A DNA stretch of 64,000 nt from Sphaerolaimus hirsutus (Eukaryota > Nematoda > Chromadorea > Monhysterida > Sphaerolaimidae), in contig CAXIWS010000359.1 of NCBI GenBank assembly GCA_964036195.1, forward strand, positions 1 through 64,000. Reading direction: 5' to 3'. Positions within the stretch are counted from its first letter, which is position 1; each line of letters begins with the position of its first letter. The notes beneath the pieces were generated by a model. That model saw only the letters and a list, made by a program, of their open reading frames with translations, ran no database searches and was not told the origin of the DNA. Shown here piece by piece: positions 6,878 to 64,000 of the stretch. A program made the position numbers and the translations under genes.

Positions 6878-7077
6878 GGGGCAGTCCCAAGCCCTGTAAA
6901 GTGTAAAGTAAAGTGTCAAATGTAAAGTCATATGCAAAGTAAAGTGTAAAGTCAATCAAAACAAAAAAGAAAAGATTTTATTACTGAACTTTGCATGACA
7001 ATTGACAGTTTACTTTGCATTTGACTTTACATTTGGCACTTTACTTTACACTTTACAGGGCTTGGGACTGCCACCAG
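6878..7077. mobile_element. Introner-family element, copy A
   Basis: It starts GGGGCAGTCCCAAGCCCTG and ends with the near-perfect inverse GGGCTTGGGACTGCCAC. Subterminal arms carry GTAAAGTGTAAAG-type repeats. Flanked by CAG on both sides (6875-6877 and 7075-7077), the arrangement of the intronic copies elsewhere in the window. Read on plus, the first two bases are GG rather than GT. I could not assign flanking exons, so its intron status is open. Confidence 0.7.
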
Positions 7078-7580
7078 TTGACTGACACGAGTTTTCATAA
7101 TTACGTCAACTGTGCACGAAATTTGTTGAAAGTACTAAATTTTTTCAAAGTATACGTCAACCTAAAGTATTTATTTTTTACTCGCCCCCTGAGTACAGGA
7201 AACGTAAAGTAATTTTTTTATTTTTACATTTAACATCAGTAAACGTGAGTATACGTACCTCCCAGAAAAAAAACTAAGAAAGAGAGTATTTTTGAGAAAT
7301 TTCGCCCCAATTTTTTGCTCAAAATCACCAATTTTCATTACTTTTTGCCTATATTCAGCACTTATTGGCTACAATTAAGCTTAAAAACAAGTTTTAGATT
7401 TTTTGCCCTATTTTTATTTCATTTGGTCCCATTTTTCCCTTACATGCCTTGAAAAAACCCACATAAATGGCTGTCAATAATACGTTTTCTGTACTCGAGT
7501 ACTTTCCTCTAAGTATATGTAAAAGTGAGTAGTGGAACTTTTTTCAGAGGAATTTACTCAGTACTTGAGTAGGGGCAGGC

Positions 7581-7950
7581 CTGATACGCACACGTGCCCG
7601 ATACGCACATATGCCCGTTTTTTTCACTTGACACTTTTTCAAGTGATTTTCAGATATGAGTAAAGTGAAAAAAGTAGAGCAATGACATAAGTGAACTTTT
7701 TTCACTTCACTCATATATGAAAATCACTTGAAAATGTGTCAAGTGAAAAAAAACAGTGAAAAATAGCCAATTTTCACTGTTTTTCATTTGACACATTTTC
7801 AAGTGATTTTCAGATATGAGTGAAGTGAAAAAAGTTCACTCATGTCATTGAGCAACTTTTTTTCACTTTACTCATATCTGAAAATCACTTGAAAAAGTGT
7901 CAAACGAAAAAAACGGGCATATGTGCGTATCGGGCACGTGTGCGTATCAG
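7581..7950. repeat. 370-bp nested palindrome
   Basis: Position 7581 opens CTGATACGCACACGTGCCCG, and 7931-7950 is its exact inverse. The arms continue inward through TTCACTTGACACTTTTTCAAG, which itself occurs four times in alternating orientation. The centre lies near 7765. The whole segment could fold into one long hairpin with internal side hairpins. Confidence 0.75.
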
Positions 7951-7984
7951 TGCACGCCCCTTGAGTATACGTAAGTAGTATATA

Positions 7985-8246
7985 TGGGTATACAAACCTG
8001 TTAGAAATTTGCCATCTCTAACGGCATTTTTCTGTTTTTCAGAAATTTTGGCGTAAAATCGCATCTTATGTAAATATTTTTTCTGTTCTGTTTTCACTTC
8101 GCTTTTTCAGCCGTCGTACCTCCGGCTGGCTCCGTGCAAACAGAACAGAAAAAATATTTACATAAGATGCGATTTTACGCCAAAATTTCTGAAAAACAGA
8201 AAAATGCCGTTAGAGATGGCAAATTTCTAACAGGTTTGTATACCCA
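7985..8246. mobile_element. Foldback element, copy 1
   Basis: Two arms of about 107 nt, essentially perfect inverses, begin TGGGTATACAAACCTGTTAG and end CTAACAGGTTTGTATACCCA. They surround a loop of about 46 nt reading TTTCACTTCGCTTTTTCAGC at its start. A near-identical copy at 41612-41873 has the loop in the opposite orientation. There is no coding capacity; it is a miniature foldback (MITE-like) element. Confidence 0.8.
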
Positions 8247-9723: not shown

Positions 9724-12700
9724 TTACCAAAGGAGTGAATCGTTTGACTGCGATTCAGGTGCATCTGTAGGCAGTCCCAAGACTCTGTAAAGTGTAAAGT
9801 AAGTGTTAAATGTAAAGTTAAATGCAAAGTCAAATGGAAAAGTTCAATAATAAATTTTTTTCGTTTTTTTGTTTTGATTGTCACTTTATTATGCATTTTG
9901 ACTTTGCATTTGATTTTACATTTATCACTTTACTTTACACTTTACAGGGCTTGGGATTGGCACCTGACGTATCGATGCAGGATTGATAAGTATGCAATTT
10001 TTCTTGTTCCACAGCAACATTCACATCAAATTTTTCCACAATCAGTTTTGTGTGCTGCAGATTAGCTCTGGGGACCCTCACACGGGATCCAAAATTACAC
10101 TCGGCACAAATTAGAACCGGATAATCCAAAGCTTTAGCAACATAATATCAAATATCAAAATCAAAATCATTTATTCATCATTATGTGTTCTCATTTAATT
10201 TGAGACTTGATGTATATTTTATAAAGCTTTGGATTATCACCAGTTTGTGTTCGCGCATGCTTTCTTGGCAGACACCATGACACCTAAAAAATTGAGTAAA
10301 ATAAGTATTTTTGAATTTTACCCCTGAAAATTAATAAAAATGTATTTACCTCATATTTATCGCTGTACCATCTGTGGATGGGTATTCTGTCATGAAAGCT
10401 TGCTGAAAAACTGTGGTGGTGCATTGTTCACCGTTTTCCAGACAAGTTTCGCGATTTGGCAAACATGCATGCATGTGTGATTTTCGTCCATTTGGAGCAT
10501 CATCTGAGGTGTGAAAAAAAATTTTTTCTACTTTTATATTATGAAAACGAAAAAATATTGCTCAAAAAATGTAGTATCACACCATGCATGATAATTTCAT
10601 CTTGAAATTTTTTGAATGTTTCTTTAACAGCGCATACATCTCCAACCACAAGTTCACGGTTTCGGGTTTGCCCCAGTGCCGTTTCCGAATGTGACTAAAA
10701 AATGTTTTAAAATTACACAATATAAATTGTTATAATTTTAAAACCATGAAAAAAGTTTTATTTACCACAACTCTTGCTTGCCAGGATTTTGGCGCATTTG
10801 CCTCCCCATGTAAATTGCAGTGTGAACAAAAGTGGTTCTTTGTAACGCCAGGTATGCCCAGCTCGCGGTGTAATGTTTGCTTCAGATGTTTGTGCGTTCT
10901 TGCAATATAGGGCTCCACTGTTTTTCGCATTGTTTTCGCATTCACTTTTTTTGAACGTTTCGTCAGATTTTCATCATTCCCATGTGTTTTCGCCAAAATA
11001 ATCGGAGGGTTTACAAACTGCGCATCTATGAGGAATACAAAACATTTTGCTGGGAGTAAATTTAGAAACTTCGATTACCGTATTCCCCCAAAATACACCC
11101 TCAAACCCCTAAACTTTTTTCAAAAAAGCATCCAACCTATAAATACTTTCCCCCAAAAAATAAACCATGTATTTCAAGGAAATACGGTAATTTGAAAAAT
11201 TACGAGCTGTCATTTCCCTATCATCTTGGCAGGCTGCATCGCTTTCACAAAATGCATTTTGTGCCTGATCCATTTCACCGTGTGCAGTTTCATGAAAGTG
11301 ACAATTTTTCACTTTGCAACTTTTGTGACCTTTCACTGTTAGTCCAGGTGCCGCTGTCAGTGCTGGCGTAATTTGCCTGAGGATTTTCATTCCATACTCC
11401 CCAGCCAGAGAATCTAAAATTTTTTGGAATTTTTTTTGAATTTTTTATTGTGGAAAAAGTCTAAAATACTTTGATCTTACATGTCACATTTGGACTAAGT
11501 GACTCATTCAACAGTGGGTAAATTTCAGGCAAATTGCGTATCCCAACAGCTGGGGGACCAAATGGTTGTGATGAAGTTATTTGTGCCCTACATAAATCTG
11601 TTCCCAAAGCAATGGTTTTTTCAGTGCCAGCTGTAATTGAAGCTTGCTTTTTTGGGTCAATAGATTTGCTGGGGCTTTTAACAGATTTGTCAGAATTTCC
11701 AGGGTTGGTAGAGATCTCAGAGTTTTGGTGGGTATCATTGTGGGGTGTGCGGTTGGCTGTTGTTTTCGATGGTGTGGGGGTTTCTCCAGTTGCAGATGCC
11801 ACCTCGGTGACCTGAAAAATGTAGGGAAATATTTTTTTTAATACTAATGTCGTATACTACAAAGACATTCCTTGGCATTGCTAGATGATGCTGCACCGCC
11901 AGAATTGTCTTGTGCTAAAGACTTCAGATAAAGTGCACGCGTTAAAGCAGGGGACAGTTCAGAACTTTCAATCTGAAAAAAACATTTATGTGATTTTTGT
12001 ATTTTGTATTCATCAAAAAAATGTAACACCTCAAAATCCTCAGAAGTATCCCCACTTTGAATGTTAAAATCAGCTAGAGTCAACCGCTGAACAGTCCCAT
12101 CTTCATTTCGCTTACTGAAAAATGATTTGTTTTAGAGTTAAGGCGATTATTTTAGGGTAAATTATATTAGATTACCGTAAATGGTAATCGGACCTCTGTG
12201 AAGGTGACCTTGAACTGCCAGATTTTGAGCCAGAAGTGGTAGATTTCCGAGATTTTGTGCCAGAAGTGCTATATTTCCAAGATTTTGAGCCAGAAGTGCT
12301 AGATTTCCGAGATTTTTTGGATCCCGAGCGGCTTTTTCTTTGCCTTTTTTTTGCAGTTTTCAAAACTTTTGAAGGTGGCAGAGAGGTCACAGTAACATTT
12401 TTTTCACTCTCAATGATTTGTCTGAACCCAGGTCGCTCGGAAGAACTTGAACTTAACGCATTATTCTGTTCTTCGACCCATTCAGATGTCCGTGATTGTA
12501 TTTCAGCGGGGGTTGGTCCTGTTGAATGAGTTCGTTTTTCAGCTTGCCCTACAGTCACAACGGTTTCATGTTGCCCTACAAATATAAGATAGCGCAAGAA
12601 TACATTTTATAATTAAAATGATTTTTGCTCTACAGACCTGGTGTTTGCACAGATTTTCTCGCCTTATAAATTGATGTTCCCCGTCCAACACCTCCAAGTG

Positions 12701-25200: not shown

Positions 25201-25537
25201 ACCATCTGTGGTTGAATTGGTTGATCTAGAAGCTGGTCAAATAAACCCAGGTGTCATTCACAGACCCTGTAAAGTGTAAAGTAAAGTGTAAAATGTTATG
25301 ATAGAATGTCACATAATTTGAAAACTGCTATGTCACTTTGCATAAAAAATTAAAGTTTTTTTCAAATAATGTGATATTCTATCATAATATTTCACAGGTT
25401 ACTTTACACTTTACAGGGTTTGGGAATGGTCAGGTGGACTACTTATGGCTGACATTTCCCAGATAACACCAGTGAGGAATAATAATGTTTTTGGGCCCCT
25501 GAGCTCTACTCCCAGTCTGTTATATTTTTTATTATAA
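19263..25537 (+). CDS. Secreted/membrane-anchored coiled-coil protein, 12 exons, about 728 residues
   Basis: Exons: 19263-19363, 21221-21410, 22018-22221, 22619-22745, 22920-23138, 23208-23438, 23503-23995, 24286-24460, 24741-24804, 24881-25053, 25145-25250, 25434-25537. They total 729 codons. Exon 1 encodes a signal peptide (MFAFFLTISLCTQIIG). Exons 4-8 are a long heptad-rich coiled coil with recurring Cys pairs and many N-glycosylation sites (NATR, NVTN, NLTF). Exons 10-11 encode hydrophobic segments (IIGGLWLLGTLVFG; LLCTIGHFLCKCC), probably one or two membrane passes, then a short tail. The exon 8/9 join is in frame only with a GG donor at 24461, or with a GT donor at 24435 and a shorter exon 8. 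Family not recognised; an extracellular tether or surface receptor is a guess. Intron 7 is a complete hairpin element and intron 11 an introner. Confidence 0.65.
19585..20119. mobile_element. hAT-like element with TIRs of about 150 bp, in intron 1 of the coiled-coil gene
   Basis: The left end CAGGAGTGGGCATCTTTAGTT pairs with the right end ATGCCCATCCCTG. The arms continue through TTACCGCTGGAAAAACGCG and GGCCACATTTTG in inverse order. CAGG-type ends suggest hAT. No clean 8-bp duplication is visible. Confidence 0.55.
20096..20861. repeat. Recent tandem duplication, unit of about 383 bp
   Basis: The block starting GGTAAGTGAAAATGCCCATCC at 20096 repeats at 20479 with very few differences (for example GCTGGGGAAA versus GCTGGCGAAA). 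It joins the right end of the hAT-like element to ACCGTATTT-family debris, so it arose after both insertions. Confidence 0.75.
23996..24285 (+). mobile_element. Second introner-like family: hairpin element forming an entire intron
   Basis: Intron 7 of the coiled-coil gene (290 bp) is an inverted repeat almost end to end. The left arm begins GTGGTGTTATAACTCATAAT and contains GTGGATATGTACAGCTCCTT and AAAAAGTACGCAAGTAACT. The right arm contains the inverse of these blocks and ends at CACTATTAACAG. The exon before it ends CAG and the intron ends CAG, the same layout as the main family, with unrelated sequence. Phase is 2 on the left and is completed by one base on the right. Confidence 0.75.
24480..24625 (+). 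repeat. Intronic tandem repeat, unit of about 30 bp
   Basis: Repeats of CTCAATTTTTGCATAATTTT with small variations, about four copies, inside intron 8 of the coiled-coil gene. Confidence 0.7.
25251..25433 (+). mobile_element. Introner copy C, last intron of the coiled-coil gene
   Basis: The exon ends CCCAG; the element starts GTGTCATTCACAGACCCTG and has GTAAAGTGTAAAG arms. It ends GGGTTTGGGAATGGT followed by CAG and the final exon. Intron phase 1 is preserved. The arms are inverse of each other over about 60 nt. Confidence 0.8.
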
Positions 25538-25721
25538 ATATTTTGACAAAGCTCCAAAAATTTCAAAAAAAAGTCATTTATATAAAAAATTGCAGTGGTT
25601 CACTTCGCGCGCCAGGAAGCTATGGTGACATTTCACGCGTCCGATGAATGATTTTGTTCGAGGGAATTCCTGAGGGATGTTATTTTTTTGTATTTTTTAT
25701 GATTTTGGATGTTAGGAGAGA

Positions 25722-26479: not shown

Positions 26480-26703
26480 TAATTAGAAATGTAAATATGA
26501 TTATGGTAGAAAATGTCACTGTGTGCTACAGATTTGAAAAAAGCATTGATAACTTAAACAAATGTCACTTCCCCACTGGTACAGTTACATTGCTTTATTA
26601 GAAATGTAAATATGATTATGGTAAAAAATGTCACTGTGTGGTACAGATTTGAAAAAAGCATTGATAACTTAAACAAATGTCACTTCCCCACTGGTACAAT
26701 TCC
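26480..26703 (+). repeat. Duplicated upstream block of about 115 bp
   Basis: A segment starting TTAGAAATGTAAATATGATT and ending TTCCCCACTGGTACA occurs twice in tandem with 2-3 differences. It lies directly upstream of the TATATAAG box and may be a duplicated promoter module. Confidence 0.65.
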
Positions 26704-26839: not shown

Positions 26840-28392
26840 ATGGACAAAACTCCCAAGTTTCAAAAGAAAGTTAAGCGCCCACTGTTCCCGCCACATGAGG
26901 AGGACGAAACTGAGCATTCCGATCAACCTGATGAAGAGGATGACCTCGAAGCACCGCGTCTGCCCAGAAAGCCTGTGAAACCTGTAAGGGCTGTTCCAAA
27001 AGTCAAGCGGATGAATGCTGTTCAGTATGAAACTTCACCAGGTAGAGCTTTGAAAGGTTGCTTTTAGATACTGTTTGGGGTGAATGATGAATCTTTGCCA
27101 AAAACAGAACTTAAAATGTTCCTTGACCACTGGTCACTTTTTTCATCTATTGGTCAATTGTCCAGTGGTCACTCTGTCTAATGGTTACTCCCTATAAATA
27201 GCTAGAAATAGGATCCAGTTTCTTTACAATCCAGTCTAAAGTGCAAGTGACCAGTGTAAAGTGCAAATGCAAGTGTTCACATAATTTAGAAACATTTTTT
27301 TCTACTCTCTCACTGTTTATTTTCAATAAGTGTTTTTTAAGGGGTTTTAAAGTGGTTCGTCATAGGAGTAATTCATAACATAGACATTATTTGTCTATAC
27401 TAGCATCATTGCCTAGTTTTTAAATGAGTGATGCTGATTCTACTATGACTGACCAATGGTCAAAGATACATAAATAAATAAATAAATAATGTCCCTGCCA
27501 TCTAATCTTTGCAGAATCGGTGGATCAAGAGCTCGTTAAGCAGGAGACACAGTATGCAGCTGATTTTCAACAAAAGCAGGAACAGAAAAAACGGCAAGCT
27601 GTGGACAACGTCATCGGGTCAAAGATCCATTGGATTTCGAAAAGTTGCCGTTCGGAAGGATTCAGGTATGTGAGGGTTATATTAAGCTTATGGATAGGTA
27701 ATTTCATTTCTCCTGTGTATAACTATGAGTTTTGCAAATTTAAAAAATTGCAAGACAATCTTCCTCAATAAATTTTTATGGAACTTATGATGTGTCCATA
27801 AAAAATGCTGTAATTTTCACATTACAGAATTCTCTTCAAGGACTCAATGCCGTTTTTGCAGGTGACATTCCCAAACTCTGTAAACATGAAATGTTGAATA
27901 TCAGTTTTTTAAAAAAAAATTCAAAATGTGAAATTTATAAAGTTTAATGTGAGATCTCAGAAATCTCGATTTTTTATTCAGTTGATATTTGATCTTTTCA
28001 TATAACCAGAGATGGGGAATGTCTGTTTAGATCGGCTCATTTGAATTCTGTCGAATTTTTTCAATATATAAGCCCGTGAGGAATCAGGGTTGGCAAAATG
28101 GTCCAAATATGCAATTCAAGTCGGTAGCAGAAATTCCACTTGGAGACAGCAAAATTTTTGACATTTTTGCTGGTAAATTTCGAGGTGTTTTCGAAGCTGC
28201 TATAGCTGAAGCAGAGGTAGGTTGACTTGTGACTTACACTATCACAAAAAAATGTTTTTGTGTATGTAAGGCACTTGCCTCCTACAGGAAAAGTTCGCCA
28301 ATCACACTGCGAGGCTCGTAGAACAACAGGAAAAATATCAACAATCGCGTTTTGGAGGGAATTATGGTGGAAAGTTCAACAATTATGCTTGA
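26840..28392 (+). CDS. 206-residue acidic/basic protein of unknown function, 5 exons
   Basis: Exons: 26840-27041, 27515-27665, 27828-27861, 28088-28216, 28288-28392. All junctions are GT-AG and in phase, giving 207 codons with the stop. The N-terminus is Lys-rich (KFQKKVKRP), then acidic (HEEDETEHSD), then Pro/Lys/Arg-rich. The C-terminal half is a globular-looking segment (IPLGD, KIFDIFAGKF) that ends in a Gly/Asn tail (FGGNYGG). I do not recognise it. The acid/base-block arrangement suggests a nucleic-acid-associated protein, by inference. Intron 3 (27862-28087) opens with the introner terminus GTGACATTCCCAAACTCTG. The start is the first ATG after the TATA-like box. Confidence 0.65.
27862..28087 (+). 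mobile_element. Introner copy K, diverged, intron 3 of the 26.8 kb gene
   Basis: The exon ends TTGCAG and the intron starts GTGACATTCCCAAACTCTGTA, clearly the family's left end. The right end is decayed and closes at AATCAG. Phase 0 is kept on both sides. Confidence 0.6.
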
Positions 28393-29160: not shown

Positions 29161-32100
29161 ATGGTGAATTATTCTTGCGAAGTTTGCGGGGCATCCTTTC
29201 TTACAACATACATGATTGGACGTCATATGGAACAGTCGCATCAATTGAAGAAAACCAATATCAGTGTTGATAAATCCGATGCCAATAATTGGATTTATAA
29301 AAGTGTTAGTGTGTTGATTTTTTATTATAAATTTGCAAAAAATTTGTAAAAAATTTGCAAATTCATTTTTTTGCAGTGTGCAAAAAAATCATATTCAAAT
29401 GTTCCATATCTCGACTTCAACATTGTGTCACCCCTTCAGAAACTGAATGACACTATGAATGGGAATAAAGGAAAAGCTGATGTTGTAGCAATGATAGATG
29501 AGGTAGTACAAAGACAAGTGAATAGTGAAAGTTTGAATGGTGAAATTTTAGAAAAACTCACTGAACTAAGCTTAAGGATGGAGAGAGTCATTCATCAAGT
29601 ATGTGAATTATTTTGAGGAACATATAAGAGCTTTGTTATAAATTGGTTTAATTCTAGGTTGACCAACTTTATTCTGCTACCGCAAATATGCCTGGTCCAT
29701 CTTCTGAAAATCAAACGGGTCATCAGGCTGTTGAAAAACGCTCACGTGCTCCAAAACGACCCAAGAAAGCACCTGAACCAGTACAAGAGTTGGATAGTGA
29801 TGAAGAACGTATGTTTCCACAATTATCTTCTGAATTAGCTAATAAGTATGGTTTTGGACACCTTCCATCCCCCATTTTTGCTAAACAGAATGCTGTCATT
29901 AATTCTGACCCAGAATTAAGCTTTTTTCAACAAATGTATCAATATCAATATAAGCCGAGAATTACAATATACCAAAAGGGGCGTAAAATTGAATATCGTT
30001 TTCCTATTTTTGGTGTGTACAATGACAATCTCAGGCAATTGCTGATTCAACAGCTAAAGGCGTTTCTTGGTGCATACCCGAAAATATTCCGGCTCAAATG
30101 TCAAATCGGCTTTTTATTAGTCTCGCGTGAAATGCCAGAAATAAATACTCGTTTTTTTCGTCAATCCTTCAATACCCAATGTTACGATGGTATAGTAAAT
30201 GGCAATTTATATCTCAAATTTAATCAAAGTATTTCTGAATTATGTAGCGGTAATTGTGAATCATACTGTACCTTTATCAATGATATGTTTTCATCTGGTG
30301 CTGCTTATAAATCGCTTCCATTTTCTATTTCCTATATCGGAATCATTATGTAAACGTTTTTAAATACGTAGATTTAATTTTTTCAGAATCAACATGCTTT
30401 GGTGGAACACGTTCGTATATAAGACGAATTATGCAAATGAAAATCAATACAAAAATTTTGGAATGCACTATTATTCTTGCATTTGCCGAATTCACAAAGC
30501 AGAAAATAAATAAAAATGAATTGTCAGAATTGGTGGCTGAAATTGAATCAGCTACTGCACATGATTCATTGTACAAAGCTACTATGTTATTTAATACACC
30601 GATAAAAGTCTATCATTCGTCTCTGAATGAAAAAATTTTTTATGAATCAAATATGTTCCAATCAAAATGGTTAAACAAGACACAAGCACAACTGCTATAT
30701 CAGAAAAATGGTCAAATTCGGCTCATTGTGGATTTGCATTTATTCCGGAAAACCTTCCAATGTACTAATTGTAGCTTAATTATTTCTAATCGCCATTCAT
30801 ATTGGAGACATAAAAGATATAATTGTCTAGCATCTGCAAAGCGCCAAAAACGGTTTGTCCTTCCAATTCATATTTATATGAAATGATTTTCTGATCTAAT
30901 TTGAAAGACCTTTTGAAAAAAACCTCTCAATCTGATCTGTACAGATTGAAAGCAAATCAAAAGGTGATTTCAATGGATGACAATGGGCTACCTAGGCTTG
31001 TAATTTCGGAATACGTAGCAGGTCGCTGGAGTGAACAACCAACCCTGATTGATCGATTAGAGGCACTGTTAGATAAGAAACCGCTTTACCATATAGAAAG
31101 CGAACACATTCCTGTAGATGATTTACCAGCTGAATTAATTGGCTTGTTAAACTTAAACACCTTTCTAACATATGACTTAGAAACAACAGCTGTCAAATCA
31201 AATCTTCCAATAGACACCGCAAACTATTCGTTTATTGGTCGCCATGTACCGTTAATCATTACTGTTACTCGCGCAGACACAAATGAAACTAGAATATGGG
31301 AAGCTTCTAGTTTTTCCAATACCCAAATTGTAGAGTCATTTGTGCTATACTGTTTAGAAGTAGCACTGGAATTTACCCAGAAAAAGCGTGCATATTTAGC
31401 TGAATTTTTTCATTTCATTACAAGTAAGAAGCAATTTACACAGAATGGTTTTGAAATGCAAAAATTGGTGGTTTTAGAAAAGCAATTATCTCAGCACATA
31501 AACACTACACCAATTTTTGGATATAATAGTGCTAGATTTGACCTACCTATATTGTTAAACTCTAAGCTGATTGAATATTTGTATTTGCATGATTTAAGTA
31601 GTGATGGTAAGCAGAAAATGCCTACTGCTATTAAAAAGGGTGAAAAGTATATAGTGTTGAAGTCCCCTCATCTAAATTTTTTAGACGCAATCGTGTTTGA
31701 GGGGGGTAGTCCATCGCTCAGTGATTCTTTACAGCAAACTTTTCCAAATGATACTTCTTTACATAAAAAATTTTTACCATATAAAGTTTTAAAAAAAGGT
31801 ATCGCCTGTTTTTCTTACGGAATTCCGGAATATGAAAGTTTTTTTGATGAAATGGCTTATACCAACACATTAGATATTGAATACAATGATTATATTAAAG
31901 CGCGACATAGATACAAAATGTCAAAAAATGAAGCGCTAGAATATTTGAACTTGAAAAAAATTCCTCAAGTTGGCAGAGAAAAGCATGCTAAAATAGTAGA
32001 AGCATGGAAAGAAAAAGGATTTACTTGCTTTAGGGACATATTAATTGATTACTGCATTAGTGATGTTAAGCCGCTAATTCGTTTTTTACAAACCCGCATA

Positions 32101-36560: not shown

Positions 36561-36636
36561 GACTTAAGCACTTCCAAGTGAGACAAGATTCGAGATCTGT
36601 ATCGATCGATGCACGTCTACTGTAATTATTTCTATG

Positions 36637-36841
36637 CGGCACTCCCAAACCCTATAAAGTGTAAAATAAAGTGACAAATATAAACAAAAAATGAAGCTAA
36701 GTAACAAAAAATACCAAAAGATAATGTTATTTCTGAACTTTCTGTTGGCAAAAAACAGTGTACTTTACTTTGCTGTATCATTTTGATTTGAGTTTACATT
36801 TAGTCGTTTACTTAACAGTTTACAGAGTTTGGGACTGCCAC
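36637..36841 (-). mobile_element. Introner copy D between capsid and protease genes
   Basis: Read on minus: TTTCAG, then GTGGCAGTCCCAAACTCTG, inverse arms, and a right end GGGTTTGGGAGTGCCGC followed by ATAG. It lies upstream of the protease start and could be an intron of a 5' untranslated leader. Confidence 0.65.
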
Positions 36842-37024: not shown

Positions 37025-38875
37025 TTAAACAAACAAACCAGTGTCTGATGGTACATTAGATGCACTATTGGTTAACCCATGTTGCTGGAAGATGATAGGT
37101 ACAACAAAATATCCACCCGCAAAGTCTTGAAACTTAATTCCAGACTGACATCCAGGAATTCCATTTGTACCTAAGATTTCAAAGAAAAAATAAGTTTGAA
37201 GAAAGTTGTACAAAACCAATAAAAAAATCACCTTGAAATTCAAGAAACTTGTTATACATATATTTCAGTACAATGTTTTGTTTCCCACCGCCTTCCGGAA
37301 GCATTTTTGTTATATATGGATTTGTTGGGAAACGATCCACAGATTCAAACGATGCCTGACACGACACAATTCCCAAATTACTGTACAAATGTGGGTTCTT
37401 AGCGTAGCTCCCTGTAAAAAAAACTGTTATGAAAAAATAATTTATGTATTGATAAAAAGGTATAAAAACAACCTCTATCTCTATCTGCTTCAATAAAAAA
37501 TATTGCTATCGCATCAGGTCTAGTTCCATTAATAATTTGGCTGTCAATGTGACTAATGCCACTATTTACTGACATGGGTCCAAAGATCTTAAATCCTTTG
37601 TACGAATAATTGATAACGTTAGTCTGGTAGCAGTCGCAACCCCCATAAACTATAAAGTAAAGCAACGAATGCAAAACTGAAATAACAGTTGACATTTTTT
37701 GTTTTCAAATGAAATGTTGGTTTCCATTTGTCTTTACATTTGTCGCTTTAGCTTAGATATTATACAGGGATTGGGGCTCCTACCTGACTAAAGCGTCTAA
37801 AAATTTTGTCACACAGCTCTGGTTGGAGAGTATATCTTTCAATCAATAAGTCTGTGTCCAAAAATTCAATTTTTGGATCCAAATCTGCAACAGCAGTATT
37901 AAGTACCTTTGCCCATGGCGCCCAACGTATTTCAACTGTTACTTTCATTCCAGGAATTAAAAGCTTTCTGCGAGTTAATGGAGTGGACATTAGTCAGTTG
38001 TTCTAAAAAATGAAGTGGAGATTCGTCACACCATCCAAAAAACAAGAAAAGTGAACCTCTGATACGCAAGCGGATAAAAAATCCGTGAAATTGTTTCAAT
38101 TTCCATTGAACCATTTGCATTAAAACAGCATTTCCTACGGTAAGCAAATCCTGGATTATCATCATCCATTGCCTGGAAAAAAGTGTCACCTTAACAATCC
38201 TTACATTTCTTGAAAAGTATAGGTATCAACATACGTCAAAATTTCCCTCGTCTTTTGCATAAAACGCCACTTCTCGTTGGTAATTCTCTATAACATTTAA
38301 AAATAGTTCTAGGTCAATTTTTTCAAGTCAGACATAACCAATATAAGCTTACCAAGTGTATCTAAGGTACTCCCAAAAGTAACCAAAAAATAATTGAGTT
38401 GACTTTGATTAGCTCCATATCCTGAAATCACTTTATCGCCAACTCTGACAATAAGGTCCGAAATCATTGAATGAGGAAATGCATTAGCCAATGCTACCTT
38501 TGTATCTAAATAAGAGAAAAAAGTTTGATATGATTACACCAAGAATTTATCATGCTAACATACCGTTTGGTATTGTCTCTCCATTTTTGTTTACTATTTT
38601 GAAACGACAATGAAGATAAAAATGGGGCGAAGTGAAGAGAGTTGTAGATTTCGGTATTTCAAATTGCACAAACTGTTCAGTGTGAACAGATGGTTTGATT
38701 ATCAAATCAAGTTTATTAGTATAAATAAACTGGGTTGGAAGATCACCATACAAGTCAGACCTGAAAAAAAGAATTCAGAATGAACAAGCAAGCATACAAA
38801 ACAAAAAAATAATCACAAGTCTTACCGTGCATCAAGCAAATTAGAGGACTGTTTTGGTACAATCCTTGTGTCCAT
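37025..38875 (-). CDS. Polinton major capsid protein, 9 exons, 425 aa
   Basis: Exons on minus: 38875-38826, 38760-38564, 38505-38353, 38308-38235, 38172-38030, 37967-37784, 37623-37473, 37411-37232, 37170-37025. Every junction is in phase and the sum is 426 codons. Segments such as FLVTFGSTLDTL and PGMKVTVEIRWAPW, together with length and context, fit the double-jelly-roll capsid proteins of Polintons; this is a position- and pattern-based call. Introns are 44-65 bp, except the sixth (37783-37624, 160 bp), which is an introner. Intron 5 has a weak donor (GTGACG). The start codon lies 2 bp after the stop of the 154-aa gene. Confidence 0.7.
37624..37783 (-). mobile_element. Introner copy E, intron 6 of the Polinton capsid gene
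   Basis: Read on minus, the exon ends AGTCAG, then GTAGGAGCCCCAATCCCTG starts the element. It ends GGGGTTGCGACTGCTAC followed by CAG and exon 7. Phase 0 on both sides. The arms are diverged but still inverse (GCTAAAGCGACAAATG versus CATTCGTTGCTTTACTTTA). The intron is the element. Confidence 0.8.
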
Positions 38876-40357: not shown

Positions 40358-41477
40358 TTTCGCTAGTAGCTAAGACCAACCTATTTTCAGGAAATGTACC
40401 AATTAATCGTAATTGCGTATGCAGTGATTTTAATACATAACTATGTAATGGTTCAGTAGAAATCACACTTTCAACGACACAAACTTCTGGGTTGTATCGG
40501 GGTTGCCCAATCTTGCGGAAAGGATTTGCAGCTAAATTTTCCCGAATAAACACTCTATCTCCAACTTTAAACTTTGCAGGATAATAACTTTTTGGTAGAT
40601 TAACTAAATCTCTCTCTGTCTTTGCTCGCGCGAAAATCTCTTCAACAGCAAGATAGTTGCCCTTGTTAACCTATAAAAAGAACACAGTAATGAGATACAA
40701 ATTTTTATTATACACGACTTTTTTGATTAAAAAATACTTACTTGCGATGGTGAAATGTTGCCTAATGGGCTGCGTTTCTCATTATTATATGATGACACCA
40801 CCGAATAAATTGCGTCATTGAGTAACAGGTCTGGACGTGTTTGCAGTAGCATTGAAACACGCTGACGAATTATCCTTATCATCTTCTCAGCCTACACAAC
40901 AGTGAGACATTTTTATAGATAAGAACATGACGAATGACATATGCAAACAACTTACCTGTACTGTTTTATGCATTGCATAAACACTGGTGTACTTATGCGA
41001 ATATCCCAGTTCTGTCACTCCAGTGTGAAAATCCTTCAAAAATTCACTGCCATTGTCAGTTAAAACATCATAAACAGGGGTTTTATAAAATTTAATCACG
41101 TGTTTAAACGCATTAAGAACATTACTAGATGATAAAATGTTTATTGGGGCTACAGTAGTAAATCCAGTTAAACATTCTACACAAATCAACATAAATTTAT
41201 TAGTACTTTTTTTAGCAAAACCAGTTAAGTACATAATATCACATGCCACCATTCCAACAAATGGAATTATATGTCGACTTGCGATTCCACGCTTAACAGG
41301 GTGTTCTGGAATCACTTTGTTCATTAGATAGCCTTTCTGAGTGTCAAGCCATTTCTGAACCTCTGGTAATGTTACATGATATCCTTGTGCATTTGCTTCT
41401 TTCCATAATTTTTTAGCACTACCATATGCACCAGCGACTCCAGGTGTTGTCCAAATATTTTTAAGGACGTCATCCAT
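40350..41477 (-). CDS. Polinton retroviral-like integrase, 3 exons, 330 aa
   Basis: Exons 41477-40956, 40891-40742 and 40670-40350, phase 0 throughout. The DDE triad is visible: Asp80 (VACDIMYL), Asp141 (VLTDNGSEF) and Glu176 at the start of exon 2 (AEKMIR), so the D-to-E spacing crosses an intron. Exon 3 carries a basic C-terminal domain (KFKVGDRVFIRE) reminiscent of the small beta/chromo-like domain of Polinton integrases. The N-terminal zinc-binding HHCC region is short or absent. The enzyme would insert the element into chromosomes. It is the outermost gene on the right side. Confidence 0.85.
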
Positions 41478-41611
41478 TTCATTGAATTTGCGCGGTGCGT
41501 GAAATAGAGGACATTAATAATAGACTGAACAAAAAAACGGCGCGTGGAGTCAATGCAAAGATGAATAAGTGTAAAAGTTCACCGGTTCATAGAACATTTT
41601 GCGATCCGTAG

Positions 41612-52834: not shown

Positions 52835-55800
52835 TCAGTGGTCTGTGTCATCTGCATTGTCTGCTGGCAGTCCCAACCCGTGTATACTGTCAAGTAAACT
52901 GTCAAATGTCAAATGAAATGTAGACTAAACTGTCCAATGTCATGAAAAGTTCAGTATTACAATTTTTCCTATTTTTATTCTGATCGACACTTTACCTAGC
53001 ATTTCAGTTTACATTTGACACTTTACTTGACACTTAACACGGGTTGCGACTGCCCCCTGAATCATCGGAAGCGTCATCTGAGTTTTCCGAGTCATCCTCT
53101 ACGTCGTCATCGTCGTCGTCCTCCTCCTCGACGTCCTCCTCCTCGACGTCCTCCTCCTCCTCGACAATCTGTGTTTAACGTTAAACTGTGCATGGAATTA
53201 GTAAACTAGTGTGTGTAGGCACTATGTTCCTAATTTTTAATGTACGATACAGCAGTTTTCCCACGTTGCATTCAAAATAGGAATGTTTTATGTATGAAAG
53301 AGACATGAGTTTTCCCACATTGCATTCAAAATAGGAATGTATTATGTATGAAACAGACATGAGTTTTCCCACGTTGCATTCAAAATAGGAATGTTTTATG
53401 TATGAAAGACAGGAGTTTTCCCACATTGCAATCAAAATAGGAAATTTTGTACGTATGAAACAGACAGGAGTTTTCCCACATTGCCATCAAAATAGTTTTC
53501 ACAAAATATGTTGGACTTACACTTCTCAACAGTAAAATGTTTAAACTCACTTCCAATCGGCCTGTGCTGCTTTTTTGACTGTGGTCGCGAGCCGCCGCGC
53601 CACCAGCAGCCGCCGCGCCACCAGCAGCCGCCGCGCCACCAGCAGCCGCCGCGCCACCAGCAGCCGCCGCGCCACCAGCAGCCGCCGCGCCACCAGCAGC
53701 CGCCGCGCCACCAGCAGCCGCCGTGCGACCGGCAGCCGCCGCGACGCCGCCTGTACCAGCTGCAGCGCCAGCGCGAGTCGCATCCTGAAGTTTTACTTCA
53801 ATAAGTTGTCACAGTACTTTACGTTTGAAATGGGATTCAGTTTTCAGTATCGTGATCGGTATTCACTTTTTGAGATTTCGGGATCGGGATTTTTGTTTCG
53901 TAATCAGGACCGGGATTGTTTTTTTGAGATTTCGGGATTGTGATTGGGTTTTCAGGATAGGGATCGGGACTGCTAACTCCCTGAATTTCACGGGATCGGG
54001 ATCGCGATCCCATTTGAAGCCTACACTACTTTGCACAGTATTTTAAAAAATACTATATAAGCTTTGAAAGTGGAACATAAAAAGTTATCTATGAGAAATA
54101 AATAATGAATTGAAACTGCTGAAACTGACATTTTGCACACCGACGTGAGCCTGCGCACACTGCGCTGCCGCGCGCTGCCGCGCCGCATCTCGTTTGCAGG
54201 CTTCGCGCAGAATTCGCTGCTGGTATTCAGCTGACGCTGCATCGGAGCCGTAACCGTGCGATGTCACCTGACCACTTTTCCTTTCCGCCACCGCACTTTT
54301 TTGTCTCTGTTGAATGTTCTGCGATGCCTGTGTGAAAAGTTATGTCGTAAATTTAGTACAGGTTTTTGTAAGCAGCCTGATAGTACATAAATGTTAAATG
54401 AATAACCAACCATGTCGATATCGTCTAGATATGGAACTAGGCTGTCATCGCAAGTTGTCCCCTCTGGAAACGGATCCAGTGGCATGTTCGTCTGAAAGTT
54501 GTGACAGTGTGTCGATATTATAAACTTCGAAACTGTTTGCATGGCCATTACGACTACGCTGTCAACAAAAACTTTTTGTGGGAAAATGGAAACGGAATAT
54601 TTGTTGTACATGCCGGAAAAGGGAAACGAAAAGTAATGTGCATTTGTCGGAAAACGGAAAAATGGAAGGCCTGAAAACGGAAACGGACAAAAAATTGCCT
54701 GGGGAAAGCGGAAAATGGAAATTTGACAACGTCATTATGACTGACCTCCATTGGCGTGCGATTTGTGTCCATGGCCGGTGCCACCAACTGCAGCGACAGC
54801 GGTGATGGTATGTGTCCCAGTCGGCGACGGGATGAACCACCGGATGCGCCACCATCCGTGGAATTTCCGGCGCCACGAGCCGAAGTAGCACCAGACGGCG
54901 TCACCAGCGAGATGGCAGGAGCTGGACTGGCAGCGCACGTAACGCCACTGGCGCCAGTGCTCGGATTATTCTGCATTTAACAACAGTTTTCCCACGTTGC
55001 AATCAAAATCTGAATTTTTTATGCATGAAACAGAGAGTAGTTTTCCCATGTTGCAATCAAAATAGGAATTTATTATGCATGAAACAGAGATGAGTTTTCC
55101 CACGTTGCAATCAAAATAAGAATTTCTTATGCATGAAACAGTAGTTTTCCCACGTTGCAATCAAAATCGGAATTTTTTATGCATGAAACAAAGAGGAGTT
55201 TTCCCATGTTGCAATCAAAATAGGAACATTTTATGTATCAAAAAGACAGCGAGTTTTCCCACGTTGCAGTAAATATGTGCATGCACATAAACTAACTTCC
55301 ATGAAAATCTCCAGTGCATCTACCAAATCGGACAATTCCTGATTGGACAGCGAATTGATGGTGTCCATCCATTCGTCCAGGGTGCCCAGGAAGCGCCAGT
55401 GCTTGATGACGTTGCAGACACATTGCAAGTCGATGGTTTGCCTGGATCGTGTGTCCGAGCACCCCTACAATACGTAAATGTAGTGAAAATTGTAAAGGAA
55501 ACTTGCAGTACAGAGTTTATAAAAATGCAACTGACACGTTTGGTATTTTCCATGGCTTTGTTGATGGTGCTGCACAATTCGCGCATTTGTGGCCTGTCCA
55601 ATGCGTTTATTTGCTGTGCGAATTGGCGCAGCGACGCGTGCAGGAGCGGCCGTCCGAGCCTCTTGTGTGTGCACCCTGACTCTGTTATGTCATTTTGCAT
55701 GGGCATTGGCTCTGACACTTTCACCGCAATTGCAACTTTTTCGGGATTCGGTTTTTCAGGTGTCAAACTTTCCGGTGTGAGCAATGCTGCCACTCTGCGC

Positions 55801-58800: not shown

Positions 58801-61800
58801 TTTTCGGGATAGGGATTGACTTTTCGGGATTGGGATTGACTTTTCGGGATCGGGATCGGGATAGCGGTTTAGGTTCGGGATCGGGATTGGGATCCCGTTT
58901 TAACCATACAAACAATTAAAATTGAAATGGTGCAGTCACTGAAACTAACGACTTGTGCCACGGAGAGCATCGGGCTGGGCGCGGCACGCGTGGGACCTTG
59001 GTAACCGATAGTAGCCGCCTGGTTGTCGACAACGCTGACAATTTGCACGTCATCGTCCATTTCCTGAAAAAAATTGACATTACAATGCGCATTTTGCAAA
59101 CTTCCGCAAAAGTTGAATAAATGTGAGAGAAGCGGTAGCAGCAGCAGCAGCAGCAGCAGTACTACAGCAGCATGAGCAACAACGACTTCACCCAGCGCCA
59201 GTTCACCGCCATGCCACAAGATGGCAGGACAAGCAGGCCGAACACTGCCCTACCACAGCTGAACTTCGCGCAAACGTTTGCGGCACCCGAGTGGCGGCAG
59301 TGGCGCCTCCAGTCTTCATCAAGCAGGGTGCAGCCAACGCAAGTCACGAGTGCGACAAGTGCAGTTTCGACCGCGTCACCCATGAGCGTTGAGGAGAGTG
59401 CTCGTGAGGAGATGGGGAACTCAATGACACCCCTCCATGCAGTAAGTTTTCAGTTTTCCCACCATGCATACATGTTGTGACAAAAAAAGTTGCAATGTGT
59501 TCACCTTTTTATGCAGTTTTCCCACGGTGAATGCAATATGAGTAAAAAGACAGGAAATAATTCAGGAGTAGTTTTCCCACCATGCATACATGTTGTGACA
59601 AAAAAAGTTGCAATGTGTTCACCTTTTTATGCAGTTTTCCCACGGTGAATGCAATATGAGTAAAAAGATAGGAAATAATTCAGGAGTAGTTTTCCCACCA
59701 TGCATACATGTTGTGACAAAAACTTCTACATACAGATGGAGGAGGTGATGCATTTTTGTCGGACCGCGGATGCTCAATTGAAGATGGCCAACAACCGACT
59801 GAAGCTGGCTAAAACTGCCATGACCGAGTTTGAAGGCAAGGTGCCACTCCCAAACCGTGTAAAAATACAAGTAAAATGTAAAATGTCATGCAAAGTGAAA
59901 AGTCGTGTAAGATAACCTGTAAGGCCATTTTATACGACTATGGACACTATTAATAACATTTGTACAATTTCCCTGGCTTTTTACACGGTATGTGAGTGTC
60001 ACCAGGTGAACATGATGACCAAAGCTGGTGAAGTCCTTGTGGCACACGTGAAGCGCACAGAGAAGAAAACAAACGCGTATTACAAAATGCTGCACACTCT
60101 TGTCCCCCCGGAGACCTTGCGCTGCCATGACGTGAACAATTTCATGGATGATTAGTTGATCATCATTGTAGGAACATAGCCATGACATTCAGTGTTCAGA
60201 TCAGACGTAAAAACGACAAAGGCGTCATCCTCTGGCTATGTACCTACATTCTTAATTGTAATACCACTGAAGTCTACCTATCGTGAAAAGTGATACTAAA
60301 AGGGCACCCACACAAACAAGTGATGACTGAATTACACTGAATAAACGTACCTCGGGAGAATGTTGCGACTCTGTTGAGCTCTGCTGTGAAACTTGCTCGG
60401 ACGGTGCAGCGGTACTGCTTTTGGCAGGTGATGGAACAACGTTGACGTAACACGCGTCAGTCTGAGAAAAACAGTTTATTGAAAGTTACTGTCATGGACA
60501 ACGTAGTTGATGAGTATGTAGTCTATGTTATTTCAGAAGTGCATGTGTTATGAAAAAGCTAATATGTTTAGTAAAATGAATCTTCTAATAAACTAAATGG
60601 GTAAATTTAGTAGAATAACGAAAACACCAAAACACCAAAACACCAAAATACATGACACACAGAAACACAACACCTTTTAAACTTACAGCTGAATGGATAA
60701 CACCTGACAATTGCAACTTTGCTTTTTTATGTACAGCAATTTGCAATTAACACTATTCGCTAACCGATACGGCCGCAGGGGATGAATTCGCCTTACTTTC
60801 CAATTCGGGCTTCTCAGTCACTTTGGGCAGCTGTGCGGAAGTTGAAGTCACGCACCAGGTGTTCCCGCCTACAGCGTATTCAGTTCTCGCTGCGGACTCT
60901 TCATTTTCACCCACGATGACCGTTTTCATCTGTGAAAAAGGGATATCAGTTAACAGAAGTGTAATATAATATTTGTAACATAAAAAACGTTTTATACTTA
61001 TTTCACGACCTTTTTTTTTTGTTGTTCCTTTTCAAATGGCGATAACACGTCTGGATTCAGTAATGATCGCACGTGGGTGCCATTTCTGCCATACATCTTT
61101 TCAAATTGTGAAGGCATCAAATACAGATCAGGTCGGTATTTCTGAAACATTTTAGACAATTTCTTCAGTTTTCAGACATGTCTTAAAGTTACAAAAAATC
61201 TAACAACGGTGCCATGACACTGGTGACATTTTTCATCAAGAGGGTGGGTTGCCAATGAATCAGCCACATCGTTTCCGGCTTCCGGTGCCATTTTCCCCTT
61301 TTGAAATGTTTTATTTCATTTCAGAAGTTTTCCCACCAAGTATTCATTGTATGAAAACTTACAACAGTGCTCTCGCCATCGCAGGCTGAAGTCACGGTGA
61401 CGTCTGCATCGGGAAGTGAAGACACAGTGTCAGCCGTGCCTGACTGCGCTTCGGCGGCCGGTTCACACGCGGGCTGAAATTGTGCATACAGAAGTAAACA
61501 AAATATGCAATTTTCCTACATGAAATGCAACATGTGAAAACTAACAGCGCCTTTGTCCTCAACCGCGTCCTGGGTGCAGAACATATCATCCTGGGATTGC
61601 TGTACCGCAGGTTGCGACTTTGCCGCCTGTGAGTGTGGTGCACATGGTGATTTTGGTGATTGAATGGCGTCATGGCGCTGGCGCCATTGTATGGCGCCAC
61701 GATATGGCGCCATTGGCGTCAGCGCTTTCAGTAGGGTGGGTGTGGGTTTGGGGGGGGGGGTTGCCCGAACACCAATCCGTAACTAACCACGTCAACATTC

Positions 61801-63513
61801 TCTGCATCAGTGCTGACGCTGCGCGAACAATTTGAAACTGCATCACTGGCGACTGCGTCCACACCTGCGTCCACACCGGCATCCCGGATTGCGTTGATTT
61901 CGCTTTCGAGCTTCTTCATCTCCAATTCTTGCTGCAAGTGTGAGAAAAAGATTGAAAAAGAGAAAAAGTATGCAAATTGCTAAAAATAAATGCTACAAGT
62001 ATTTTTGAGGGGGGTGGGGGCAATTGTTTACGGATACCGGCGAAGGGGGAGGGGGCGCAACCCCCCTGCCTAGAATTTTTGAAAATTGAGCCTGGAAAAG
62101 TTGCACGAGAACACATTTCCTTACATTTCCATGTCTCACCCCTGAAGGGGGGGGGCGCGCCCTGATCGTAAAATGGTAAATGTAAAAAAAGTATAACCTT
62201 TTTCTTCAAAGCGCGCCGCTTTTTAGTCGCCTCAGCTTGGTTTTTCTTTCTGGCCGCACGCTTGGCAGCCTCCAATTCCTTTTGCTTTTCCTCTTTCAAA
62301 CGCTGTTCCTCCTCTACCCGCTTTTTCTCTTCTTCCTGTTTTTTCTGTTCCTCGAACTCTTTCTGGTGTGCAACAATATCCTGCAAAGTTGTAATTATTG
62401 GGGGGGGGGGCGCGGGGGTTCAATATATATATGCAAAGAAGGGAGAAAAGTATAGAAATCGCTCAAAGTAGGTGAATAATGGCTAAAAATGGGTATATAA
62501 GGACATATAGTACTTAAAAAGAGCTTAAAATTCATAAAATCGCTTAGATATGTACATAACTGGCCGATTTCTGGGGGGGGGGTTTGGTGATACTGTCCAA
62601 CATATTTGCCTACGGAATCGATACGTTTTCGGGCGTACCACATAGATAGATAGCTGAAGGATTTGGATGTTAAAACACACCCCACCCCATCCCCTACAAA
62701 AACCATTAAAATTAAGTTATAACTCACCGGTGAAACCACATTGACAAAGGACCCTGGCAAAACGTCATCCGGTTGTAGAATCCGCTCACTACTCACAGCG
62801 CCATCTTGGTGTGAAGTGTGAGTCTGCGCCCACGCTGCGCCGCGGCTCTGCATGAGTTTTGCCTCGTCTGCAGCCTTTTTCGCTAGCCGGCCGGAACTCC
62901 TGCAAAAATTTCTTAGTGTTCGTTTACTAATTGGCTTACGTCTAAATGACACTGCTACTAGGGTTCAAACGGGATCCCGATCCCGATCCCGGATCCCGTG
63001 AAATTCCGGGATTTACCAGTCCCGATCCCGATCCCGTGACCCCAATCCCGGCCAATCCCGATCCCGATCCCGAAATCTCAAAAAACCAATCCCGATCCCG
63101 AAACCCCAATCCCGATCCCGAAATCTCAAAAAGTGAATCCCGATCCCGAAAAGTCAATCCCGTTTGAACCCTAACTGCTACCTCCTTCCAGAGAATGACC
63201 GCATGAACGAAACACTCAAACCTAAGCGTAAGCCTAAACAGACCCGAAAATATTGTAAAATTGTTGCAAAAAGAATCCCCGATTAATATAATAACCTGTC
63301 GTCAGTTTTAGGCCGCAATTGTGCTCTGGCAGACGGTGCCGGCCGCGCAGTATCTGCTTTGCTGGGCCTTCCTCTTTTGCCACCACCGCCGCGACCGCGT
63401 CCGCCACCGCGTCCGCCGCCGCGTCCGCCCCCGCGCCCAGCGTCCGCGCCGCCGCCTGCGCCGCCAGCGTCCGCGCCGCCGCCGGCGCCGCGATTCGCCG
63501 CCGATTTGACCAT
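52835..63513 (-). CDS. 27-exon gene for an AT-hook nuclear protein, about 1,429 aa
   Basis: Exons on minus: 63513-63296, 62899-62728, 62380-62198, 61931-61788, 61626-61546, 61473-61363, 61297-61205, 61141-61010, 60929-60765, 60461-60351, 59063-58950, 58746-58612, 58480-58259, 58029-57758, 57692-57632, 57429-57229, 56915-56783, 56712-56552, 56142-55941, 55870-55536, 55464-55297, 54970-54746, 54491-54411, 54327-54130, 53784-53551, 53168-53057, 52860-52835. Phases agree throughout (1,430 codons). Exon 1 is Gly/Arg-rich with an AT-hook (KRGRPSK). Exons 3 and 12 are Lys/Glu coiled coil, exon 7 has CHQCH, exon 25 is Ala/Gly repeats (15-bp units), and the C-terminus is acidic. This fits a chromatin or transcription factor; I do not recognise the family. 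21 of 26 introns are phase 0. The last intron is an introner starting GG. Confidence 0.7.
52861..53056 (-). mobile_element. Introner copy G with GG-AG ends, last intron of the AT-hook gene
   Basis: On minus the exon ends GATTCAG and the element starts GGGGCAGTCGCAACCCGTG. It ends GGGTTGGGACTGCCAG then CAG and the last exon. Phase 1 is kept, and the acidic tail continues across the join. The second base of the donor is G instead of T. Confidence 0.75.
53255..53500 (-). repeat. Intronic TTTTCCCACGTTGCA tandem array, part 1
   Basis: About five units of about 60 bp in intron 25 of the AT-hook gene, each with GTTTTCCCACGTTGCATTC then AAAATAGGAATG and TATGTATGAAA. Further arrays of the same unit lie in other introns of this gene. 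Confidence 0.8.
54560..54722 (-). mobile_element. TTTCCGTTTTCC element fragment in intron 22
   Basis: It contains TGTCAACAAAAACTTTTTG and repeated GGAAAACGGAAA modules, the inverse of the element at 16823-17307. It lies wholly within an intron of the AT-hook gene. Confidence 0.5.
54980..55265 (-). repeat. Intronic TTTTCCCACGTTGCA tandem array, part 2
   Basis: About six units, in intron 21, with ATGCATGAAACAGAG spacers. Confidence 0.8.
56175..56475 (-). repeat. Intronic TTTTCCCACGTTGCA tandem array, part 3
   Basis: About seven units, in intron 18, with GCATGAAAAAGAGAGGAG spacers; the last units are nearly identical. Smaller arrays lie at 58066-58195 (intron 13) and 59446-59705 (intron 10). 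Confidence 0.8.
58780..58912. mobile_element. GGGATC-rich element in intron 11 of the AT-hook gene
   Basis: The ends are GGTTAAAACGGGATT and ATCCCGTTTTAACC. The interior repeats GACTTTTCGGGATCGGGATT. Relatives: 62959-63173, 56968-57054, 57541-57620 and 53850-54015. Confidence 0.6.
59172..60155 (+). CDS. Nested plus-strand gene, 174 aa, 3 exons
   Basis: Exons 59172-59441, 59736-59840 and 60006-60155, all phase 0 and GT-AG. It lies inside intron 10 of the AT-hook gene on the opposite strand. The N-terminus is Gln/Ser/Thr-rich. Exons 2-3 form a charged helix (MANNRLKLAKTAMTEFEG; VAHVKRTEKKTNAYYK) that looks like a small coiled-coil subunit. No family recognised. Intron 2 is a full introner copy, and intron 1 holds a duplicated block of the TTTTCCCAC repeat. 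Confidence 0.6.
59841..60005 (+). mobile_element. Introner copy H, intron 2 of the nested gene
   Basis: The exon ends GGCAAG; the element starts GTGCCACTCCCAAACCGTGT and ends TACACGGTATGTGAGTGTCAC followed by CAG. Phase 0 on both sides. The left target copy is AAG rather than CAG. Confidence 0.8.
62959..63173. mobile_element. GGGATC-rich hAT-like element with perfect 8-bp target duplication
   Basis: Ends TAGGGTTCAAACGGGATC and GTTTGAACCCTA are inverse. ACTGCTAC flanks it on the left (62951-62958) and on the right (63174-63181). The interior is a string of CCCGATCCCGA modules. It lies in intron 1 of the AT-hook gene. Confidence 0.75.
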
Positions 63514-63748
63514 TTTCGGCGTATTCTTGGCGATATACGCGTCCGGAGAATTTTTTATTTTTATTTTCTTTTTTACTTTTTGAATTGAAAACCGTAAATG
63601 ACATCATAAGTGTACCAAAAAAAAAATTCGCTTGTGTGAACAGTATTCCATACAAAATGGTCACTTTTTTTTAGTTTTCTCATCGTGACAACATAAGATG
63701 AAAACAACTTATGCCCAAAAGTAAAAAATTTCAAAAGTCGATAAAGAA
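63514..63748. promoter_or_regulatory. Divergent promoter region between two genes
   Basis: 235 bp separate the start codons of the minus-strand AT-hook gene (63513) and the plus-strand gene at 63749. Both starts are strong-looking reading frames, so a bidirectional promoter is likely. No TATA box is evident. Confidence 0.5.
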
Positions 63749-64000
63749 ATGGCGGACGAACCGCAAAACGCGCCGCCTAACGGGGCGCAAAACGCGCCGC
63801 AAAATGCGGCACAAAACGAAATAGAACTAGAGCGCCTAAATAGAATAATTGACGGTCACGTCGATGGCTCAGCGCCGTTGACTGATCAACAGCGCCACTG
63901 TATTTTAGTGTCAATTATTGGTCTGGCAGCTACTGTATTTGATTATGAAGATGACCAGCAGGTGACACTCCCACACACTGGAAAATGTCATGTAAAATGT
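63749..64000 (+). CDS. Start of a plus-strand gene, truncated by the window
   Basis: Exon 1 is 63749-63961 (71 codons, phase 0). It begins MADEPQNAPPNG, has Asn/Gln/Ala-rich repeats of NAPQNA type, then a helical segment (IELERLNRIIDGHV) and an aliphatic stretch (ILVSIIGLAATVF). The exon ends CAGCAG and the next bases, GTGACACTCCCACACACTGG, are the left end of an introner copy. No family recognised from this fragment. Confidence 0.65.
   Translation, partial: MADEPQNAPPNGAQNAPQNAAQNEIELERLNRIIDGHVDGSAPLTDQQRHCILVSIIGLAATVFDYEDDQQVTLPHTGKCHVKC
63962..64000 (+). mobile_element. Introner copy I, left end only
   Basis: GTGACACTCCCACACACTGG followed by AAATGTCATGTAAAATGT matches the family's left arm and directly follows CAG. 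The rest is outside the window. Confidence 0.7.

Follow-up and report, generated by a model that had tools for sequence, protein, structure and literature searches.

Candidate introners from a PIF/Harbinger-like element family in the nematode Sphaerolaimus hirsutus, with a duplicated CAG as the predicted second splice site

Introners are known that bring one splice site of their own and take the other from the target-site duplication made on insertion (Gozashti et al., 2022; PMC9860276). We describe here a family of short inverted-repeat elements from the nematode Sphaerolaimus hirsutus that appear to form introns in a comparable way. They were found in a window of 64,000 nucleotides (the whole stretch of DNA analysed, positions 1 to 64,000 of the forward strand of contig CAXIWS010000359.1, assembly GCA_964036195.1), which is part of a contig of 82.9 kb, here C302, in an assembly of 348 Mb and 762 contigs. 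We regard this as a new introner family, although of a known mechanism type, since the introners of Gozashti et al. (2022) already take their second splice site from the duplication. The family is not named in open-access titles on introners, on Polinton introns or on introners together with Harbinger, among the matches listed, and it may be described elsewhere.

The introners of that report (PMC9860276) are, like those proposed here, non-autonomous DNA transposons that obtain one splice site from the duplicated target and restore the reading. Those of Chrysochromulina have their own 5′ site and a co-opted 3′ site, as in the present family, whereas those of Symbiodinium, which combine inverted repeats with a duplication, have the splice-site roles reversed. 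Both make 4-bp duplications, compared with the 3-bp CWG (CAG or CTG) found here, and the Chrysochromulina family is without inverted repeats, whereas ours has long ones whose ends are usually unlike. Hairpin introns with inverted repeats are also described in Amoebophrya, with direct repeats of 3-5 nt at the splice boundaries (Farhat et al., 2021; PMC7789003), but as reported there they are mainly non-canonical and without a family-specific inverted repeat, whereas the introns predicted here are GT-AG and belong to one family. As a transposon the element is like the NuwaI group of PIF/Harbinger-like (PHIS) elements, which duplicate CWG and whose ends usually start GGG (Han et al., 2015; PMC4482050), as one of the two usual ends of the present family, GGGGCAG, does. 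It is unlike NuwaI in that its other end starts GTG and in that a local search, around a transposase gene on C302, gave no autonomous copy carrying DDE and Myb/SANT genes; the part of the NuwaI account at hand does not mention introns, whereas the present family is predicted to form them. A further likeness is to the mirusviruses, a double-stranded DNA (dsDNA) virus lineage with introner-like introns in major capsid protein genes, where 69 candidate introners are reported, 21 of them in the capsid gene (PMC12768974). Those candidates were recognized through similarity of introns within one viral genome, whereas here a transposon family in a host genome is seen in a Polinton-like region with its empty sites visible.

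Two insertions in a capsid-like gene

The evidence that carries the argument comes from copy E (copies are lettered A to I here, differently from the first-pass annotation of this DNA), which lies in a gene of a Polinton/Maverick-like region that we take to be capsid-like from its position and motifs, not from any search match. The peptide following E has 37 matches in the genome, and 32 of these loci were compared (12 and 20 from two sets, with the window among them and several near-identical duplicates). Five contain E, as 160, 161, 188, 188 and 188 extra bases, and the GT donor and CAG acceptor are retained in all five despite differences within the element. In the remaining 27, which include near-identical duplicates and are thus not 27 independent cases, E is absent and the site is read through. 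The alignment is contiguous over the site in 15 of these (12 with 0 bases, two lacking two codons and one with a one-base slip); nine others have 55-70 extra bases in the alignment, which on direct reading belong to another intron about 30 nt downstream, the site of E being contiguous; and the last three (L066-L068), likewise contiguous where E would be, contain a different insertion upstream. None of the 27 loci without E has a non-element intron at precisely its position. The residues around the site are ELCDKIFRRFSQ/TNVINYSYKGFKIFG in the window (TNVINYSYKG; a solidus marks a splice boundary or its equivalent), ELADRIFQKFSI/TNTINYSYKGFKIFG in locus L054 (TNTINYSYKG) and ELADAIFLKYNN/TNVVNYSYKGLKIFG in L057-L059.

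The flanking codons of the window differ from those of the other carriers by 0 amino-acid and 4 silent changes (L049), 0 and 5 (L050), 0 and 0 (L051) and 2 and 2 (L053), a small comparison among carriers that are not independent. This pattern suggests that the capsid-like gene kept its function with E in place, in which case E would have to be removed from the transcript, because reading on into it meets a stop after 7 codons. On these comparisons the prediction that copy E is an intron is strongly supported.

A second insertion in the same gene, in L066-L068, lies 35 nt upstream of the E site and reads CAACCAG/GTGTCATTCTCACA...TTT CAG/AACTTGCTC, where L055 and others have CAACCAG/AATTGGCAG. 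Its donor begins GTGTC and the exon resumes AACTTG; the CAG that occurs once at the empty site occurs twice around the insertion, the coding-strand donor is GT, and excision would restore the frame in phase 1. CCAG is present at the empty second site in 14 of the 15 relatives checked. Because the insertion site is shared, the sequences of L066-L068 suggest a single event. Its best pairwise match is to copy C (78% over 37 bases, E 4.5e-4), and it could be a diverged member of the family or belong to a related one. We note also a small non-element intron, some 30 nt downstream of where E lies, which 18 of the 32 loci have (L055, L066-L082 and others) and the five E carriers lack.

The element family in the window and in the genome

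The end pair of the family is written here as GTGGCAGTCCC/GGGGCAGTCCC. At two or fewer mismatches GTGGCAGTCCC has 22 matches in the window where 6.75 are expected. Copies were located with a 46-base weight matrix and a profile hidden Markov model, both built from window copies, which gave seven two-ended hairpin copies of 157-206 bp, of the kind known as miniature inverted-repeat transposable elements (MITEs), and two one-ended copies. The 14 ends of the seven have profile E-values of 5e-20 to 1e-10, partly by construction since the profile comes from the same ends. The repeated inverted-repeat element of the first-pass annotation is thus borne out, with far more matches than chance would give; the annotation's count of at least eleven copies is reached if single and degenerate ends are included, the two-ended copies being seven. 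Three degenerate ends are at 16.8, 6.5 and 45.9 kb (E 2e-7, 1e-5 and 1e-3). The single ends at 27862 and 63962 have profile E-values of 8e-4 and 6e-4, equalled by the best of a complemented-sequence control (5e-4 and 8e-4) that re-hits the hairpin elements themselves; in a 20-base scan they score 23.7 and 15.8, against 13.6 or less in the control, and the end at 63962 improves to E 7e-7 when sequence past the window end is added. CAG or CTG flanks are present on both sides of copies A, B, C, E and F and on one side of D and G, and the right end of C is irregular and shorter. All of the two-ended copies fold as hairpins (-48.7 to -118.4 kcal/mol, without a shuffle control). Among copies A-G, the arms of each diverged copy seem closer to each other than to other copies, which may point to separate subfamilies or arm correction.

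On the coding strand, copies B, C, E and G have a GT donor end, a CAG acceptor and a frame able to continue, as had been proposed for 9765-9963, 25251-25433, 37624-37783 and 59841-60005, although the frame at B runs for only 13 codons past the junction before a stop and gives weak coding support. The continuation after C is open, with a stop 33 codons on, and G has 54 open codons before it and 49 after. Copies B, E, G, H and I would be similar introns of different genes, with family ends at both splice boundaries; C differs in its irregular right end. The segment 52861-53056 had also been called a complete intron, which we do not uphold, since copy F begins on the coding strand CAG/GGGGCAG and has no GT; the coding-like sequence around it is acidic before the element and remains so beyond it. 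A GT at the left and CAG at the right are found in six of the seven copies with coding-like flanks (B, C, E, G, H and I, as against F), a count biased by the fact that spliceability helped in recognizing copies, and to which we attach no probability.

Copies H and I are in a Harbinger-type transposase gene that runs past the window end. Completed with the following sequence, copy H reads CAG/GTGACACTCCC...GGGACTGTCCC CAG/, and copy I, intron 7 of the model, reads CAG/GTTGCAGTCAC...GTGACTGCCAC CAG/. The model has eight exons, and its frame is open over all seven junctions, two of which are candidate introners. Its product matches DDE_Tnp_4 (E 8e-29), and of 6,406 candidates scored in a protein search 88 match it at E <= 0.001; the named matches include animal HARBI1-like, ALP1-like and uncharacterized proteins, and many are nameless. 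A local search around this gene found no CWG-flanked inverted ends and, beside it, no autonomous partner of the element.

Exact GTGGCAGTCCC occurs 2,237 times in the genome and the reversed pattern 41 times. Some of these matches form a regular 7.3-kb array with which contig C1 begins, and were discarded as a chance match in what, judging by its likeness to 28S sequence in one locus read, is probably 28S ribosomal DNA. Past this array, 40 stretches (163,740 bases) around the first listed matches on contig C1 were taken as a sample, which is thus selected by one exact GT end and confined to one contig. The triplet before exact GT ends is CAG in 17 and CTG in 15 (32 of 42 together), compared with about 2.7% of all triplets, and 34 of the 40 paired copies have one GT and one GG end (GTGGCAG with GGGGCAG). 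The usual element is therefore asymmetric and the duplication is CWG. The symmetric ends that had been put forward as a family rule do not hold, although on contig C302, where the ends are more diverged, copies E, G and I start GT from either end (A and H are GT/GG), and the proposed CAG target duplication stands for CAG before GT ends (17/42) but has to be widened, with CTG at 15/42. Likewise the suggested genomic search for flanked ends shows the expected enrichment, of CWG flanks in this sample, but without a bias to CAG.

Oriented by the GT end, the flanks are CAG/CAG in nine copies, CTG/CTG in five and CTG/CAG in five, the remainder having other combinations. Of the 18 copies in GT...AG configuration, five have a frame that stays open for 30 codons or more to either side and 13 do not, as counted without a control or a coding test. 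With no excess of CAG and 5/18 open frames, many genomic copies are probably ordinary MITEs. The five CTG/CAG copies are L019, L029, L036, L037 and L047, the converse CAG/CTG being absent from the oriented list, and L047 has a paralogue, L046, with CAG/CAG. A variant end, GTGGCAGTCCCGCA in place of GTGGCAGTCCCAAG, was seen in L012, L017, L018, L021, L022 and others, and may mark a related subfamily.

A proposed route from insertion to intron, and its rivals

We propose that a non-autonomous PIF/Harbinger-like DNA transposon, presumably moved by a NuwaI-type transposase, inserts at CWG and duplicates the triplet. In the usual element one end starts GT and the other GG, and, if the family is of the NuwaI kind, the GT end would have come from a GGG-type end when its second base changed once, from G to T. 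An insertion into an exon with the GT end leftmost and CAG on the coding strand would give a pre-mRNA reading CAG/GT...CAG/. The spliceosome would then take its 5′ splice site from the left CAG together with the element's GT, and its 3′ splice site from the right CAG; removal of the element with one CAG would leave the protein unchanged. CAG/GT pairs with U1 over five bases and CAG is a standard acceptor, so that the target triplet would serve twice.

We put at about 0.86 the probability that a CWG-inserting MITE becomes an intron in this way, through its own GT and the duplicated CAG, with the reading restored. Support for gain from empty sites comes from copy E and from the second capsid-like insertion; together with the in-frame transposase junctions it sustains the earlier proposal that the element's GT and a duplicated CAG acceptor allow removal that restores the reading. 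Several observations weigh on the other side. The donors (GTGCCA, GTGACA and GTTGCA) fit poorly, after the GT, with the usual consensus. The relatives shown do not have CAG at the E codon, and the target triplet of E is thus one that we infer. Against the family profile the second insertion is weak (E 0.014 for L066 and L067, 0.33 for L068), a search for relatives of the gene around copy G found none, and copy F indicates that coding-like surroundings are possible without a GT donor. The transposase exons were picked by eye with frame as a criterion, and their in-frame junctions are partly by construction. Finally, the five E carriers may have originated through movement of the virus-like element or through segmental duplication. 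Copy D is also found in L049, L050, L051 and L053, and a copy of the window region on contig C7, in which copy C and the one-ended copy at 27862 are likewise present, has 98% identity over 22,892-29,867, is patchy farther left and stops matching at 39,226.

That the elements are never spliced, and that their host genes are dead or truncated with open frames as remnants, is improbable, although it is the rival that we take most seriously: mobile-element genes are often dead, and copy F, within coding-like sequence, lacks a GT donor. Against it, all five loci with E have kept both GT and CAG while their flanking codons show few or no amino-acid changes, and the transposase model is open over seven junctions. 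It is very unlikely that MITEs invaded introns already in place, so that the agreement between element ends and splice sites would be secondary; the genes are intron-rich, but the E site is without an intron in 27 of the 32 loci and the element ends are exon ends to the base. We give equally little credence to splicing at an internal TTTACAG near the right end in place of the duplicated CAG. There TTTACTTTACACTTTACAG looks like a good acceptor, and the inner site keeps the frame open for copy B and for transposase intron 7, but in E the inner site is TTTATAG and its use would add 26 nt and break the frame, at C it would lead to a stop after 16 codons, and the empty sites agree with the outer CAG.

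More tentatively, and at rather less than even odds, splicing at the element's GT and the duplicated CAG can be extended to a history in which a NuwaI-like MITE gained its donor by one base change, invaded a Polinton capsid gene at least twice, independently and 35 nt apart, and multiplied with it, the Polinton acting as an intron carrier. Copies of the element in the capsid-like gene would place an introner in a virus-like element, which bears on a published suggestion, cited in PMC12768974, that dsDNA viruses move introners from host to host. The multi-copy gene would offer a base-exact view of an intron's birth, before and after, within one genome, so that intron gain could be studied without other species. 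The fixed CWG target, for its part, predicts which insertions can and which cannot form introns (those that can have the GT end to the left and a coding-strand CAG), and so provides a clean natural experiment.

Other features of the window

The coordinates are collected in Table 1. The ATPase, protease and capsid genes of the Polinton/Maverick-like region are presumed identities, given by eye. Polinton termini were searched for around the region and not found. The ATPase-like protein had no relatives outside this genome among 5.8 billion proteins; relatives of the Polinton-like genes were absent from viral contigs in two scans, as were the two element end patterns.

Table 1. Features of the window and of the adjoining part of contig C302 (solidus, predicted splice boundary)
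Feature	Position	Strand	Details
Copy A	6878..7074	-	Near-perfect MITE; GT end 7074, GG end 6878; plus-strand CAG on both sides; not spliceable
Copy B, predicted intron	9765..9963 (element 9768-9963)	-	TCAG/GTGCCAATCCC...GGGACTGCCTA CAG/
Copy C, predicted intron	25251..25433	+	CCCAG/GTGTCATTCAC...GGGAATGGT CAG/; irregular right end
One-ended copy	27862..27886	+	GCAG/GTGACATTCCCAAACTCTG; possible intron start
DNA polymerase B open frames	30895..34008	+	PF03175: 30895-32391 below, 32731-34008 above Pfam cut-off (E 1.3e-9)
Copy D	36636..36841	-	Between capsid-like and protease-like genes; flanks TAT/CTG; not a clean intron
Coding sequence directly after E	37474..37623	-	50 codons compared (TNVINYSYKGFKIFGP...)
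Copy E, predicted intron	37624..37783	-	Element 37627-37783 plus one CAG 37624-37626; empty sites in relatives
Coding sequence directly before E	37784..37951	-	56 codons compared (...LQPELCDKIFRRFSQ)
Integrase-like (rve) open frame	40887..41513	-	PF00665, E 3.3e-5, below Pfam cut-off
Copy F	52864..53056	-	CAG/GGGGCAG...CTGCCAG CAG; wrong orientation, without GT donor
Copy G, predicted intron	59841..60005 (element 59841-60002)	+	GGCAAG/GTGCCACTCCC...GTGTCAC CAG/
Transposase gene, first coding exon	63749..63961	+	71 codons
Copy H start, predicted intron 1 of Harbinger-type transposase gene	63962..64000	+	Continues to C302:64083
Further transposase exons, modelled	C302:64084-66453		Candidate introner, copy I, at 66200-66357

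A different MITE family is represented by a near-perfect palindromic repeat of 291 bp with ends GTGGGTATACAAACC, present as two inverted copies (7967-8257 and 41601-41890) that are 98% identical. The segment 53195-58219 contains repeat arrays with a period of about 54 nt, with 13 in-register copies over four places.

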